Source: Candidatus Epulonipiscium sp. (GTDB lineage Bacteria > Bacillota_A > Clostridia > Lachnospirales > Cellulosilyticaceae). Taken from it: a stretch of 6,161 nucleotides of DNA. The stretch lies in assembly GCA_012841565.1 (NCBI GenBank), contig DUUM01000338.1:1-6161 (forward strand), in the 5' to 3' direction. Positions 1 to 6,161 of the stretch are shown here, piece after piece (the stretch's first letter is position 1; the number at the start of each line of letters is the position of its first letter). Both the position numbers and the translations under genes were made by a program. Below the pieces are notes generated by a model, which searched no databases, was not told the origin of the DNA, and was given only the letters and a program-made list of their open reading frames with translations.

Positions 1-3000
1 ATATAAGTATTGCTTTGGGTCTCTACCACTTTCACCCTATAAAGCACTTCCTTTAAAAGATCAAAATGCTGGGTGAAGTCTTTTTTAATCTGTGGTATTG
101 TCTCTTCTTCTGCCTTAATATAGTCAATCATAATTTTACTATTTGGGTTGTTAAATTGCTTAATTTCGTCCGCCTCTACTTTGAGGGTCGTTTGTAAATA
201 CGGGTGAGCTTTAATAACTGTTTCTAGGGCATTTATTAGCTTAAGTGCTTTAGACGTCCCCTCAATCTTAAGCATAAATGGTATATTATAGATTAGCTTG
301 CCTGGATTTTTTTGCTCGTCGTAATAAATGCCTAATTGTGTTTGAGATAAAGGCACTCCTTCATTTTCTAATAAAGCAACTTTAGCTTCTTTAACTTCTA
401 CTAGTTGATCTTTATTATCAAACATATGTTCTACAAGGTCATTTTCAATGTCCAAAATTGTCGCACCTTGCATGATTTTATTGACTGTAGGCCCATATCC
501 ATATCTCTTGTTAATGGCTGTAACAAGTTTAATGACTGAAAGTGACGTAAAGCCTATTCTCATTAAATCCACGCTAACACCAACGTCTTGATGGCCCACA
601 ATATCACTTGCAATTTTAACAAGCTCTTCTTCTAGCTTGGTTAAGGACCTATTTATTGCTTGATCTTCTTCTATATTTGCACTTAACTTAAGCTCTGGTA
701 ATTTGCCCTTATCAACTTTTCCGTTTTGGTTTAAAGGGATGCTATCTATTTGCATGGTAGCAGCTGGAACCATATAGTGAGGAAGTTCTTCTACTATAAA
801 ATCATTTAATTTAGCCACATTAATTCGTTCTGGTCCTGTAATATAAGCGCTTATAAATTTATCCCCATTGGCTGATTCTTGGGCAACAACAGTGGCATCT
901 TTAACCTCAGAAAACTGACGTATTCTAGCTTCAACTTCTGATAATTCAATACGGAATCCTCTTATTTTTATTTGCAAATCGCGTCTTCCAACAAATTCCA
1001 AATTACCATCTTCTAAGTATCTACAAACATCACCCGTTTTATAAATTCTTTCATATCCTAGCTTTTTAGAAAAAGGATTAGAAACAAAAACCTTCTGGGT
1101 CTGCTCGTCATTATTTAAATAACCTCTTGCCACGGAGTATCCCGCAACACATAGTTCTCCCGGTACCATAACTGGAAGCTCACGGTTATACTGGTCCACA
1201 ATATAAATATCTGTATTATTAACAGAACAACCAATAGGAATATTTTTGTATTCCTTATCCATATTAAAATGGGTCACAAAAACACTGCATTCTGTTGGGC
1301 CATAAAGATTCTCAAATGGGTAATTTGGAGGCGTACAGGAAACTAGTTTTTCCCCACCTGTCACTAAAGTTTTAATATAGGGGTTGCTGGGATATTGGGT
1401 AATATATTCTCTCCCCATCTGAGTGGTTAAAAGAATATTAGTAATCTTATTGTCTCTAAAGTAGGCATCTAATTGTGGCAAGTCAAGACGCATTTCCTCT
1501 GGGACAATATACACACAGGCACCTGCCGTGAGGAAGGGGAAAAAATCTAATATAGAGGCATCAAAACCAAAGCTACCATAACCAACAGACCTGCTCTGAC
1601 CTGTAATATGGTAAGTTGCTTGAAACATTTTACAAAAGCTCATAATATTCTTATGTTCTAACATACACCCTTTAGGTGTCCCTGTGGATCCTGATGTGTA
1701 TAAAAGATTAAATAAGTCTTCTGGCTTAGGTCTTTCTAATGTAACCGTCTTATCAAGAGCTAAGGCGCAAATATCCTTTGTATAAATAATTTCACCCTTA
1801 TAGTCAGGGACAAGTTCTTCTAGATCCTCATCTAAAATTAGTATTTCCATCTTAGAGTCTTCAATCATATACTTGAGTCGGCTTTTTGGATATTTAGCAT
1901 CCAAGGGTTGATAGGCCCCACCTGCTTTTAATATACCCCAAAAAGAGATTGGGAATATATGGCTCCGGTCAACTAAAATGCCTACTTTCTTCTCTGCTCT
2001 AATACCTTTTTTCTTTAAATACGTCCCTAGGGAATCTGATAGGTCATCTAATTCTTTATAGGTGATATACTTATCTTTAAAAACAATGGCTAGGTTATTT
2101 GGATTTTTTTGGACCTGTTCTTTAAATAGGTCTACCACTGTTAAATTCTGGTCAAACTCTAAATCATTCTCATTAAATCTTTCTCTAAGGATCTGGTCTT
2201 CTTGGGAAAACAACGGAATCTCCATTAAACAAGACTGCTCCATAAAGCCCTTTAAAATCAGAATAAACATATCCATAAATCTTTTCATTGTGCTTTCAAA
2301 ATATAAATCCTTACGGTAACTTAAGGACAGTTCATACCCGCTTTTCCTTTTGAAAATCCTTAAAGCTAAATTTGCCACACTATTTTCTACTTGTATATTC
2401 TCTAGCAAAATAGTGTTTCCATCTAAGTGGAAATCATTGAATATCTCACCTTGATAGGCAAAGATAACATCCGTTGTAAGTCCATAATCTTTTGCTATTG
2501 TCTCAAACGAATAGGCCTGATGTGCAACAGTTGCGTAGACATTGCTTTGTAATGCTACTAGATAATCATGAATTGTATGGGCCTCATTAATGGGCACGTA
2601 TAAAGGCAAGGTATTTACCAACATGCCTATGGTATTCTTAAGTTTTGGATGAAATCGTCCATGACTGACCGTACACAATAAAGATTCTTCTTGCCCTGTG
2701 AATTTTGCCAAGGCATAAGAATAAGCTCCCAGGAAAAAAGTATTGGTCGTTATACTGTTTTGCTTTAAAAAAGCATTAACCTCACTAATTCCCAGTCCAC
2801 CGCCTAAATTAATCCTTATATTTCCTTCTGGGTGGTGATTATTATTTTTATTTTCTTCTTTATCAAAAATAATGTTAGAATCCACCTCTACCCCAGCTAA
2901 GATGTCATCAAAATATTTTTTACTGCTTTGGTAGTCAGAAGTTTCAATATACCTTTCCCCAAAATTGGCTAGTACAGACAAGTCTGCCTCTTGTTCTAGA

Positions 3001-3545
3001 ATAGATTTCCCCTCATAGTAGTTGGCAATTTGTTTTAAGAAAATTCCCGTAGATGTTCCGTCAAAAATAATATGATGCATATCCATTAGGAAATAAAAGC
3101 CATCTTCTACCTGGTAAATAGCAAATCTAAATAATGGACCTTCTTCTAAATCGAAGGGCCTAGGAAATTCTAATTTTATCTTTTCTATTTCATCTTGTGA
3201 ACTCTCATACACTTGAACTTCTACTTTTAACGCTGGTTTATAATGCATAACTGGCATTTCTTCATCATAAAAAACAACAGACTTTAAGACCGGAAAGCTC
3301 TGTGTTGCTTTTTTAATGGCGTCGTTTAGGCGGCCTTTGTCTATCCCCAAATCTTCTTGTATAAAGAAGGATATGGGAAGATTATACATAAGAGCCTCTG
3401 GTCTTTGTACACACTCTAGAAACACACCTAGCTGGCCATCCGTCATCTTGTGGAATGAATTCCCTAGATGAAAATCTTTCAGTAGACCATTTTCCTGTAG
3501 GGCTTGTTCAAATAAGTCTATAGACATCGTATTACCCCTCTTCAT
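1..3545 (-). CDS. Non-ribosomal peptide synthetase, C-A-PCP-C (3' end beyond window)
   Basis: This multidomain NRPS would add one amino acid to a peptide carried on an upstream thiolation domain, then pass the product on. Numbering is from the ATG at 3545. The condensation domain (about 30-435) has its active-site motif HHIIFDG at 157-163 and the C5-like IGMLVNTLPL further on. The adenylation domain (about 455-950) has TSGSTG at 617-622, FDAS at 661-664, YGPTE at 748-752, YKTGD at 835-839, a canonical A8 (GRRDLQIKIRGFRIEL, 853-868) and NGKVD with the catalytic Lys943. The carrier domain (about 960-1030) has its predicted phosphopantetheine Ser1001 in IGFTSL. A second condensation domain begins near 1064 (VPLSQTQLGIYY) and is cut by the window edge before its HHxxxDG. 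The frame is open to base 3. Aligned to GrsA, the pocket reads D-A-L-L-V-G-L-V-F-K, suggesting a hydrophobic alpha-amino acid (inference, low certainty). No epimerase, methyltransferase or thioesterase domain is in view. An alternative in-frame ATG at 3527 also has a good binding site. Confidence 0.95.
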   Translation of the reverse strand, partial: MKRGNTMSIDLFEQALQENGLLKDFHLGNSFHKMTDGQLGVFLECVQRPEALMYNLPISFFIQEDLGIDKGRLNDAIKKATQSFPVLKSVVFYDEEMPVMHYKPALKVEVQVYESSQDEIEKIKLEFPRPFDLEEGPLFRFAIYQVEDGFYFLMDMHHIIFDGTSTGIFLKQIANYYEGKSILEQEADLSVLANFGERYIETSDYQSSKKYFDDILAGVEVDSNIIFDKEENKNNNHHPEGNIRINLGGGLGISEVNAFLKQNSITTNTFFLGAYSYALAKFTGQEESLLCTVSHGRFHPKLKNTIGMLVNTLPLYVPINEAHTIHDYLVALQSNVYATVAHQAYSFETIAKDYGLTTDVIFAYQGEIFNDFHLDGNTILLENIQVENSVANLALRIFKRKSGYELSLSYRKDLYFESTMKRFMDMFILILKGFMEQSCLMEIPLFSQEDQILRERFNENDLEFDQNLTVVDLFKEQVQKNPNNLAIVFKDKYITYKELDDLSDSLGTYLKKKGIRAEKKVGILVDRSHIFPISFWGILKAGGAYQPLDAKYPKSRLKYMIEDSKMEILILDEDLEELVPDYKGEIIYTKDICALALDKTVTLERPKPEDLFNLLYTSGSTGTPKGCMLEHKNIMSFCKMFQATYHITGQSRSVGYGSFGFDASILDFFPFLTAGACVYIVPEEMRLDLPQLDAYFRDNKITNILLTTQMGREYITQYPSNPYIKTLVTGGEKLVSCTPPNYPFENLYGPTECSVFVTHFNMDKEYKNIPIGCSVNNTDIYIVDQYNRELPVMVPGELCVAGYSVARGYLNNDEQTQKVFVSNPFSKKLGYERIYKTGDVCRYLEDGNLEFVGRRDLQIKIRGFRIELSEVEARIRQFSEVKDATVVAQESANGDKFISAYITGPERINVAKLNDFIVEELPHYMVPAATMQIDSIPLNQNGKVDKGKLPELKLSANIEEDQAINRSLTKLEEELVKIASDIVGHQDVGVSVDLMRIGFTSLSVIKLVTAINKRYGYGPTVNKIMQGATILDIENDLVEHMFDNKDQLVEVKEAKVALLENEGVPLSQTQLGIYYDEQKNPGKLIYNIPFMLKIEGTSKALKLINALETVIKAHPYLQTTLKVEADEIKQFNNPNSKIMIDYIKAEEETIPQIKKDFTQHFDLLKEVLYRVKVVETQSNTY

Positions 3546-3546
3546 A

Positions 3547-5409
3547 TTATGCACCTCTCACTTTTAATTTTGCTTTATCCACTTTTCCATTCTGATTTAA
3601 AGGTATGGTTTGAATTTGTACCATTGTCTTTGGAAGCATATGAGATGGAAGGCCCTCCCTTATAAAATCATTTAACTGGACTATGTTAATTTCTTCTTGC
3701 CCTGTAATATAAGCTGCTATATATTTTTCTCCATCTACCGCTTCCTCAGCAATTACTGCAGCATCTTTCACCTTAGAAAATTGGCGTATTCTAAGTTCGA
3801 TTTCTCCTAATTCAACGCGCAAACTATTGATACTAACCTGAGAATCTTTTCTGCCTAAAAACTCAATATTACCATCCTCTAGGCACCGACAAATATCACC
3901 TGTTTTATACATCCGCTCATAACCATCTTGCTTAGAAAATGGATTAGGGATAAAAACTTTCTTGCTTTGGTCGGCTTGATTTAAATAGCCTCTTGATACA
4001 GAATATCCAGCCACACATAGCTCCCCTGGCACCATAATAGGAAGTTCACGGTTATATTGATCGACAATATATACATCCATATTATTAATGACCTTACCTA
4101 TTGGGATGTTCTTATATTCTTTATTCATCCTAAATCGTGTCACAAGAACACTGCATTCCGTTGGTCCATAGCAATTTTCAAAAGGATAATTGGGTGGTTT
4201 ACAAGAAAGAAGCTTTTCCCCACCTGTCATCAACATCTTGATAAACGGATTATCCGGATACTCCGTAATATATTGTCTGGCCATATGAGTCATTAGAACT
4301 ATATTCGTAATCTTATGTAACCTAAAATAGGCATCCAATTTAGGCAAATTATAACGGATTTCATCTGGCATAATATAAACTGAAGCACCTGATGTTAAAA
4401 ACGGAAGAAAGTCTAAGGTTGACGCATCAATGGCAAAATTTTCATAGGCTACAGATCTGTTTTTATGAGTAATATTATATGTATCTTGAATCACCTTACA
4501 AAAACTCGCAATGTTTTTATGTTCTAACATGCAGCCTTTAGGCACTCCCGTAGAACCTGACGTATAGAGAATATAGAACAAATCCTCTGGTTTCGGTCTT
4601 TCTAGTTCTATATTTGAGTCTTGTGGCAGGCAATAGATGTCCTTTGTATAAATAATCTTTCCTTTAAAATCAGGAACAAGAACTTGAAGGTCCTCATCTA
4701 TAATTAATATTCCTGTTTCAGAGTCTTCTAACATATACTTAAGTCTTTTTTCGGGATGTTTAGGATCTAATGGCTGATAAACCCCACCTGCCTTCAATAT
4801 CCCAAGAAAAGAGACTGGATAAATATCACTTCTATTAACTAAAATACCCACCACTTTATCTGCTTTTACACCTAACTTCTTTAGGTAGATAGCAAGCGTT
4901 TCTGATAAGATATCGAGTTCTTTGTAGGTCATATGCTTTTGCTCAAACACTATGGCTGTATTATGAGGATTTTGCCCTACTTGCTCTCTAAACATATCAA
5001 TAACGGTCAAACTTCGGTCAAATGCTAACTCATTATGGTTGAATCCTTGGCGAATAAGTCGATCTTGCTCTGATACTAAGGGGATTTCCATTAAATATGA
5101 CTGGGTCAAAAAGCCTTCCATTATCCTATTAAACATGTCCATAAATCTCTCTCTCGTATGGTCATCTTGGTAATCAAACAAGTACTTTGTCCCAATATCC
5201 TTTTGTATTTTTAATAGGTAATCACAAACCTTACACGCTTCATTTATTGTAATCGTCACAGCAACAATTTGCCCCTGCTTACCCCTAGTATTTATTACGA
5301 CCTCTTCCTGCCCTGTAAATTTCCCAAAAGCATAGGCATAGGCGCCTATAAAGAAAGTATTTTCAGTTAGATTATATTTTTTTAAGAATATCTCTCTATT
5401 TTGTTCCAT
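3547..5409 (-). CDS. NRPS adenylation protein with eroded condensation domain and no carrier domain
   Basis: This protein should activate an amino acid as its adenylate, but has no carrier domain of its own to receive it. I start it at 5409 (620 residues) because GGGAGGGG lies just upstream of that ATG. The longest frame starts at 5445 (632 residues), where no binding site precedes the ATG. Residues 2-125 are a shortened C-terminal part of a condensation domain without HHxxxDG. The adenylation domain follows: A1 MTYKEL at 160-165, A2 LKAGGVYQPLDP at 205-216, TSGSTG at 283-288, IDAS at 327-330, YGPTE at 414-418, YKTGD at 501-505, and NGKVD with Lys609 near the end. A8 is altered: GRKDSQVSINSLRVEL replaces the usual QVKIRG core. 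The protein stops 11 residues after Lys609, exactly where a carrier domain would normally follow. The pocket aligned to GrsA reads D-A-L-V-M-G-C-V-L-K, hydrophobic and different from the downstream copy. It could be a trans-loading enzyme, a starter unit, or a decaying module. Confidence 0.93.
   Translation of the reverse strand: MEQNREIFLKKYNLTENTFFIGAYAYAFGKFTGQEEVVINTRGKQGQIVAVTITINEACKVCDYLLKIQKDIGTKYLFDYQDDHTRERFMDMFNRIMEGFLTQSYLMEIPLVSEQDRLIRQGFNHNELAFDRSLTVIDMFREQVGQNPHNTAIVFEQKHMTYKELDILSETLAIYLKKLGVKADKVVGILVNRSDIYPVSFLGILKAGGVYQPLDPKHPEKRLKYMLEDSETGILIIDEDLQVLVPDFKGKIIYTKDIYCLPQDSNIELERPKPEDLFYILYTSGSTGVPKGCMLEHKNIASFCKVIQDTYNITHKNRSVAYENFAIDASTLDFLPFLTSGASVYIMPDEIRYNLPKLDAYFRLHKITNIVLMTHMARQYITEYPDNPFIKMLMTGGEKLLSCKPPNYPFENCYGPTECSVLVTRFRMNKEYKNIPIGKVINNMDVYIVDQYNRELPIMVPGELCVAGYSVSRGYLNQADQSKKVFIPNPFSKQDGYERMYKTGDICRCLEDGNIEFLGRKDSQVSINSLRVELGEIELRIRQFSKVKDAAVIAEEAVDGEKYIAAYITGQEEINIVQLNDFIREGLPSHMLPKTMVQIQTIPLNQNGKVDKAKLKVRGA
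3552..3557 (-). promoter_or_regulatory. Ribosome binding site of the large NRPS, inside the end of the adenylation gene
   Basis: Minus-strand GAGGTG matches six bases of the Shine-Dalgarno consensus and lies six bases before the ATG at 3545. It is made from the last codons of the upstream gene (Arg-Gly-Ala), whose TAA ends one base before the new ATG. Terminating ribosomes would reach the next start directly, implying translational coupling. A second site, AGAGGGG at 3535-3541, serves an in-frame ATG at 3527; either or both may be used. Confidence 0.7.
5035..5406 (-). other. Condensation-domain remnant at N-terminus of the adenylation protein
   Basis: The segment aligns with the C-terminal half of the intact condensation domain in the downstream gene. 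It shares a block near its start (FFIGAYAYAFGKFTGQEE against FFLGAYSYALAKFTGQEE) and one at its end (RFMDMF and LMEIPL). Between the start of the shared block and LMEIPL the downstream copy has 181 residue steps and this one 98, so 83 codons are missing in frame. All of the catalytic N-terminal half is gone as well. It cannot form peptide bonds. What remains includes the final part leading into the adenylation domain, which in known NRPS structures forms a platform with it, so a structural role is possible. Confidence 0.8.
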
Positions 5410-5412
5410 AAG

Positions 5413-5420
5413 CCCCTCCC
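5413..5420 (-). promoter_or_regulatory. Ribosome binding site that decides the start of the adenylation gene
   Basis: Minus-strand GGGAGGGG is followed by CTT and the ATG at 5409, so the GGAGG core is five bases from the start. The in-frame ATG 36 bases upstream (5445) is preceded by ACAATTAG, with no match to the 16S rRNA tail. This is why I prefer the shorter 620-residue product. Confidence 0.75.
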
Positions 5421-5500
5421 ATTTGTTGCTCTTGTTATTTACCATCTAATTGTTATCGTATTTTTCTCGTTAAAGTTACAAGGAAGTATTTTATATTTTT

Positions 5501-5908
5501 TCATATTAATTCCTTCCTCTTACTAATCTTTAGGATGTTTTTATTGTTTACATGATTATATTCAACACGATCCATGATCTTCTTAACCATAAATATACCT
5601 AAACCACCAACATCTCTTTCCTCTGCACCTAGTGTTATGTCTGGGTCCATTGCTAAAAGGGGATTATAGGGTTTTCCATTATCTTCAAATTCAATAATGA
5701 TATCCTCCGATACACATATTCTAATCACTGCGCCTCCTATTTCTGGATTGTAGGCATAATGAGCAATGTTTACAAATATCTCTTCAACTGCAATGTTAAT
5801 TTGAGTCATAACTTTCATACTGCACTCACTTATTTGTAAGGACTCGTTGACAAACTCTAATACCTCATCTAATTTTTCAATACTAGCTTCAATGATTAAT
5901 TCTTTCAT
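5501..5908 (-). CDS. RsbW/SpoIIAB-like anti-sigma factor serine kinase (GHKL ATPase)
   Basis: This small cytoplasmic ATP-binding protein belongs to the family of SpoIIAB and RsbW, which phosphorylate a STAS-domain antagonist and hold a sigma factor or other target in check. The 135-residue length is typical. The N box has Glu43 and Asn47 in EEIFVNIAHYAY; the E-xxx-N spacing matches the catalytic Glu and Mg-binding Asn of SpoIIAB, so kinase activity is plausible. The G1 box is EDNGKPYNP (Asp76, Gly78) and the G2 box is GGLGIFMVKK (101-110). There is no membrane segment and no phospho-acceptor His domain, so it is not a sensor kinase. The ATG at 5908 has a near-perfect GAGGAGGG seven bases upstream. 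It lies 21 bp after the phosphatase gene and 91 bp before the adenylation gene, all in the same direction. Family is certain; its target is not visible here. Confidence 0.93.
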   Translation of the reverse strand: MKELIIEASIEKLDEVLEFVNESLQISECSMKVMTQINIAVEEIFVNIAHYAYNPEIGGAVIRICVSEDIIIEFEDNGKPYNPLLAMDPDITLGAEERDVGGLGIFMVKKIMDRVEYNHVNNKNILKISKRKELI

Positions 5909-5915
5909 CGTGTTT

Positions 5916-5923
5916 CCCTCCTC
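5916..5923 (-). promoter_or_regulatory. Ribosome binding site of the anti-sigma kinase gene
   Basis: Reading on the minus strand the site is GAGGAGGG, seven bases before the ATG at 5908. It fixes that start and lies inside the 21-bp gap after the phosphatase gene. Confidence 0.85.
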
Positions 5924-5929
5924 ATTAAT

Positions 5930-6161
5930 TTATGTGGTCTTTCTAATCGCTACAATTGCAATATCATCGAATTGTGGAGCCTCCCCTACAAACAAATCAA
6001 CATCGGCTTTAATATATGAAATAACATCATGAATTTCCATGTTTTGCAAGCCTTTGCTTGACGCTAATAAGCGATTATCTCCGTATAATTGATTGTCTAG
6101 ATTAGTTGCTTCTGTTACGCCATCTGTGTATAGAAGAAGCATCTCTCCCTCTTCAATTTTC
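5930..6161 (-). CDS. SpoIIE/RsbU-type PP2C serine phosphatase, C-terminal end (5' end beyond window)
   Basis: Only the last 76 or so residues are present; the frame is open through the right edge. They carry the hallmarks of the end of a SpoIIE/RsbU PP2C domain: LLLYTDGVTEATN with a metal-binding Asp, then YGDNRLL, and the final FDDIAIVAIR with the paired Asp that closes the metal site. Proteins of this family remove phosphate from STAS-domain anti-sigma antagonists, reversing the action of the RsbW-type kinase encoded immediately downstream. Any sensor or membrane domain would lie outside the window, so the input signal cannot be read. It ends with TAA 21 bp before the kinase start, so the two are almost certainly cotranscribed. 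Confidence 0.92.
   Translation of the reverse strand, partial: KIEEGEMLLLYTDGVTEATNLDNQLYGDNRLLASSKGLQNMEIHDVISYIKADVDLFVGEAPQFDDIAIVAIRKTT

Follow-up and report, generated by a model that had tools for sequence, protein, structure and literature searches.

A reduced half-condensation-adenylation protein without a carrier precedes a peptide synthetase gene on a short contig

NRPSs that end in a thioester reductase are present in Clostridia-like genomes, and the gut dipeptide-aldehyde synthetases, for example that of ruminopeptin, presumably belong among them. ANL enzymes that need no carrier also exist, such as the amide bond synthetase McbA. Work on McbA is found in PMC6282839, and gut peptide aldehydes are treated as a product class in an excerpt of PMC12327764. 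ThdA of thermoactinoamide is a precedent for a loading module with a truncated condensation domain, there N-terminal and called C* (PMC7253712, in part). Stand-alone adenylation proteins that load separate carriers have been described as well, such as OaaA with OaaACP (PMC13142362, in part), and starter condensation domains are described as taking acyl-CoA or acyl-ACP (PMC7804268, in part). The adenylation-domain motif A8 enters the active site in the thiolation conformation, where its lysine (K434 in GrsA) binds, according to the portion of PMC8341999 used here.

The window, which is the whole stretch of DNA analysed here (6,161 bases), encodes a middle protein (MID) and a downstream synthetase (DOWN) (Table 1), and its adenylation (A) and condensation (C) domains fall among those of the reductase-ended NRPSs. 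It differs from these by an extra carrier-less half-C-A gene before the synthetase, and it ends before the point where a reductase could lie. MID resembles the part of ThdA described above in that the line opens with an incomplete C domain ahead of the A domain, as it does in nine relatives with complete starts; these relatives keep A-PCP, whereas in MID the C-lobe is shortened further and the carrier (PCP) is gone. Like OaaA as far as it is described in the excerpt, MID is a single A domain encoded alone, but it seems to derive from a modular synthetase, its A8 is eroded, and the window has no carrier gene to go with it.

Table 1. Coordinates of the features in the window.
Feature	Position	Strand	Remarks
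MID, reduced half-condensation-adenylation protein without carrier	3547..5409	-	620 aa, with the start codon ATG at 5409
C-lobe remnants and C-A linker of MID	5101..5394	-	roughly residues 18-115 in the numbering of the 632-aa ORF; the N-lobe, which would carry HHxxxDG, is missing
Adenylation domain of MID	3565..5010	-	Pfam; 68% identity to the A domain of DOWN over 484 columns
A8 motif of MID, eroded	3796..3855	-	Ser538, Asn540 and Ser541 in place of Lys, Arg and Gly (632-aa numbering)
A10 motif NGKVDK of MID, lysine retained	3574..3591	-	
DOWN, synthetase C-A-PCP-C..., contig ends inside second C domain	3..3527	-	
Condensation active-site motif HHIIFDG of DOWN	3057..3077	-	
Adenylation domain of DOWN, A8 = IKIRGFR	693..2144	-	Pfam
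PCP of DOWN, Ser in IGFTSLS, sole carrier found in window	423..644	-	Pfam and carrier profile
HATPase_c_2 gene, immediately upstream of MID	5501..5908	-	Pfam
SpoIIE-type phosphatase gene, C-terminal part, rest cut by contig end	5930..6160	-	Pfam

The open reading frame of MID (3547-5445, 632 aa) is open throughout, and its start codon is preceded by GGGAGGGG, a good ribosome-binding site. The protein cluster to which MID belongs (P0001) has two member sequences from one contig. Analysis with Pfam shows AMP-binding and AMP-binding_C in MID and nothing else (PF00501, 236.4 bits against a cut-off of 29.9; PF13193, 30 bits against 24.5), which identifies an NRPS adenylation domain, while DOWN contains two condensation stretches, an A domain, AMP-binding_C and a PCP. 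MID ends with AKLKVRGA shortly past A10, and no PCP follows its A domain to complete a C-A-PCP module. A PCP profile made from the carriers of relatives (n=74) was scanned against the six-frame window and found one PCP, that of DOWN, with 62.5 bits; the sole other match at E<=10 scored 5.8 bits. The serine is kept in 84 of 84 carrier matches of >=30 bits, including the PCP of DOWN. From the stop codon of MID (3547-3549) to the likely ATG of DOWN (3527) there are 19 bases. The earlier note had claimed that MID has no carrier and stops just after the A10 lysine, that none is encoded between the two proteins, and that DOWN opens with a C domain carrying HHIIFDG, and all of this is borne out. Outside the synthetases of 38 fetched loci no carrier scored more than 8.3 bits, with two weak partial matches in L041 and L072. 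A narrow literature search on A domains lacking a PCP found no such paper.

The first 115 or so residues of MID are condensation C-lobe pieces, collinear with DOWN, which the earlier note had overlooked. A condensation domain with HHxxxDG was not found in MID (no PF00668 match at E<=0.001), only the C-lobe remnants. As in C* half-condensation domains, a C-lobe without HHxxxDG stands before the A domain at the start of the protein; the A domain followed by a PCP, which also belongs to that type, is missing. The structure model of MID has a mean pLDDT of 90.5 with a confidently modelled A domain, and 607 of its 620 residues align with the EntF C-A platform (PDB 5JA1; model 1-620 on chain 232-963), from which MID differs by the absence of the N-lobe and of parts of the C-lobe. 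The 50 structure matches listed are NRPS and related adenylation structures only, and as such are no argument against other families. The nearest protein, P0002, is a half-C-A protein that also ends without a PCP, and its 2562-base contig may simply stop there; the carrier loss could be older and common to both proteins. Used as queries, residues 1-130 of MID found only MID itself among 35 candidates (E<=0.001), and residues 1-255 of P0002 only P0002 itself among 1988 candidates (E<=1e-8).

Four segments of MID which we take to be motifs A3 (YTSGSTGVPKG), A5 (NCYGPTE), A7 (YKTGD) and A10 (NGKVDK) are intact, just as had been stated before. Judged by its residues A8 is not intact, a point that the earlier note had missed: MID has VSINSLR, against IKIRGFR in DOWN and VKIRGFR in most relatives, and retains the hinge Asp534 and Arg543. 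The residues K-R-G-R were present in 113 of 120 A8 matches (from 117 of the 120 proteins listed) and S-N-S-R in MID alone; P0027 is likewise odd, with S-L-I-R. MID therefore lacks the Lys and Gly that we used as the mark of the thiolation conformation, and with A8 eroded an unimpaired loading domain in MID is not supported. In a 62-row alignment MID lost 18 of 106 conserved columns, and DOWN and P0002 lost 10 and 11, each of at most 110. A clustering of these losses in A8 was considered as proof of specialisation and rejected (A8 holds 4 of the 18 lost columns and 14 of all 106; p=0.19).

Matches at E<=1e-140 to P0002 were found in at least 15 of 391 genomes of the class of G001 (two candidates scored per genome) and in 6 of 98 relatives of G001, and to P0003 (Eubacteriaceae bacterium ES2) in 19 of 149 relatives of G094; some genome searches scored few candidates per genome, and their counts are lower bounds. 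The search for nearer relatives of DOWN gave matches at E<=1e-240 in three of 67 genomes of the order of G094, with 43% identity at best. Of the plasmid records, 2340 had a match, none of which reached 60% identity; the 20 listed range from 30 to 37%. The 38 fetched loci showed three architectures, A-PCP-C-A-PCP-C-A-PCP-R, C-A-PCP-C-A-PCP-R and half-C-A-PCP-C-A-PCP-R, with Pfam run on L038, L040 and L041. A reductase match was present in 33 of them; of the others, L081 stops without a reductase, and L082-L085 are truncated where the contig or the stretch ends. By sequence kinship, the A domains of MID, DOWN, P0002 and P0024 belong with those from the first or second modules of reductase-ended synthetases. 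Half-C first modules with complete starts (nine relatives) have 254-294 residues without HHxxxDG before the first A domain, with a C-lobe match, and short leaders of 241-283 residues also occur in L063, L064 and L082, of which L082 gives a weak C-lobe match and L063 and L064 give none. On the A tree, whose backbone is poorly supported, full versus half C needs four changes when L077 (start cut), L063, L064 and L082 are labelled half. As to the survey of homologous loci proposed in the earlier note, half-C first modules do recur, but the relatives keep A-PCP, with P0002 as the exception subject to its contig end.

The synthetases of L038-L040, L071-L073, L075, L076 and L078 start partway through a condensation domain, with the C-lobe only, and have 66-82% identity to P0003 over most of the length of P0003. 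This identity indicates that the half domain is conserved, and it is probably functional.

A full-length C domain at a complete start was present in 12 relatives, and all 12 kept HHxxxDG. No second carrier at >=5 bits was found in the fetched DNA around these 12, which for L084 includes only about 0.2 kb upstream. It means that DOWN need not depend on MID, and DOWN may be able to start a peptide by itself. In the C tree, made from C segments of at least 395 residues with one L081 segment left out, the C domain of DOWN lies in the fork between terminal C domains and carrier-preceded ones. The best genome matches of DOWN are middle modules of A-PCP-C-A-PCP-C-A-PCP-R synthetases, where the C domain follows a carrier. 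The claim that DOWN requires a loaded upstream carrier is thus neither established nor refuted, with the terminal C domains on one side and the best match on the other. Among these relatives, HHxxxDG in a terminal condensation domain gives little reason to suppose that an upstream carrier is missing.

The A domains of MID and DOWN are paralogues, and appear as sisters in the A tree (99/87; 99/72 in another A tree), followed by P0002 and then P0024; the AU test still allows a clade of MID with P0002 (p=0.099). The A domains of L065, L074, L080 and L081 were left out of the A tree and of the conserved-column and dN/dS comparison. The branch of MID (0.36) is longer than that of DOWN (0.18). In the relative-rate test private changes were more numerous in MID than in DOWN with each of 7 outgroups, at p<0.05 with 6 of them, and P0002 against DOWN gave no difference with 4 outgroups. 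Pairwise dN between MID and DOWN is 0.19-0.21 and dS 1.1-3.7 by three methods, and 60% of 115 fourfold sites differ, showing that synonymous change is saturated and protein change is not. At 0.05 substitutions per site an in-frame neutral simulation left 5 of 300 copies free of stops; at 0.1, 0.2, 0.3 and 0.5 it left none of 300. Saturated dS with low dN and the open frame mean that selection has acted on MID through most of its existence, and the statement that simple decay is insufficient holds, with dN of about 0.2. Among the columns conserved in 35 relatives, MID has altered 12 of 101, DOWN four and P0002 eight; three of the 12 are altered in DOWN and P0002 too, leaving nine beyond those. 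L084 (13 of 111) and L085 (12 of 112) change as many, though their first module is C-A-PCP. As far as these substitution patterns tell, constraint on MID is weaker or altered, yet the gene has been kept for most of its life.

The SpoIIE-type phosphatase and HATPase_c_2 genes beside MID (5501-6160) have counterparts near the synthetase in other loci. Both matched in 8 of 38 loci (L041, L065-L069, L079 and L080), as a single protein in L079 and L080, and HATPase abuts the synthetase directly in L068 and L069. The recurrence of these neighbours may point to partner-switch regulation of the synthetases; many of the loci are close kin. In L041, L042, L043, L057-L061 and L079 a protein next to the synthetase, 578-591 residues long, matches HATPase_c_2 by phmmer. 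In L041, the only one examined with Pfam, this is a MatE transporter with C-terminal HATPase_c_2, in effect an anti-sigma-like kinase joined to a transporter, and the same neighbourhood has a GH3-family protein (L041 4527-6227).

We lean slightly to the reading that MID is a reduced, thiolation-impaired loading module from a duplication, at most adenylation-competent, and that DOWN starts by itself. The first module of DOWN, or of a close ancestor, would have been duplicated; the copy would first have turned into a loading module with half a condensation domain, and its carrier and the thiolation residues of A8 would have gone afterwards, in this presumed order. MID might still form an aminoacyl-adenylate at most, with a carrier no longer charged efficiently and no working assembly-line step left, and DOWN would begin the peptide with a starter C domain and an acyl donor, or with its own A domain and PCP only. 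The absent PCP, the C-lobe remnant modelled as a C-A platform, the A8 loss, the altered conserved columns, the longer branch, the recurring half-C modules and the 12 terminal full C domains around which no second carrier was found speak for this impaired module. Against it, purifying selection since the duplication and the good ribosome-binding site argue for a kept function, the A8 clustering is non-significant, the A8 of P0027 is odd too, L084 and L085 change as many conserved columns, P0002 ends without a PCP as well, and the MID-P0002 clade is allowed. Of the earlier reading as a whole, the missing carrier and the insufficiency of simple decay stand, and the donor requirement stays unproven.

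A kept function could be that of a working stand-alone loader, which charges the PCP of DOWN or a free-standing carrier beyond the contig in trans and so supplies the donor for the C domain of DOWN. Long purifying selection on an open frame, the kept A3, A5, A7 and A10 with the A8 hinge Asp and Arg, the example of OaaA, and the carrier-following best matches of DOWN agree with it, but the Lys, Arg and Gly of A8 are gone and the only carrier, in the window as in the 38 loci at >8.3 bits, lies within a synthetase, and we consider such a loader rather doubtful. MID could also be an adenylate-only enzyme born by duplication, passing its aminoacyl-adenylate to a small nucleophile or partner protein and not to the assembly line; it would have shed its A8 residues, its carrier and the donor side of its C domain, with selection keeping the adenylation motifs and the C-lobe as a folded stub. 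The retention of the adenylation motifs beside the loss of the thiolation parts (carrier, A8) under long selection agrees with it, as does the example of McbA, however no partner or acceptor was identified, and faster change with scattered conserved losses and non-significant A8 clustering fits relaxation equally, making it unlikely. A young, wholly inactive pseudogene, its frame still open because inactivation was recent, would account for the missing PCP, C-domain N-lobe and portions of the C-lobe, for the accelerated change and for the altered conserved columns; it is quite improbable against the retained frame, start signal and four motifs and the confident A-domain model. That two tandem modules were collapsed in assembly and the carrier was lost thereby is hardly credible: the source is indeed a short contig, but MID and DOWN have no exact stretch of more than 17 bases in common, and their junction has stop, ribosome-binding site and start in proper order.

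As a reduced loading module, MID would be an assembly-line module partway through disassembly, whose losses match the two-step mechanism of adenylation domains, with A10 kept and A8 and the carrier lost. It thus bears on whether adenylation and thiolation can uncouple in nature.
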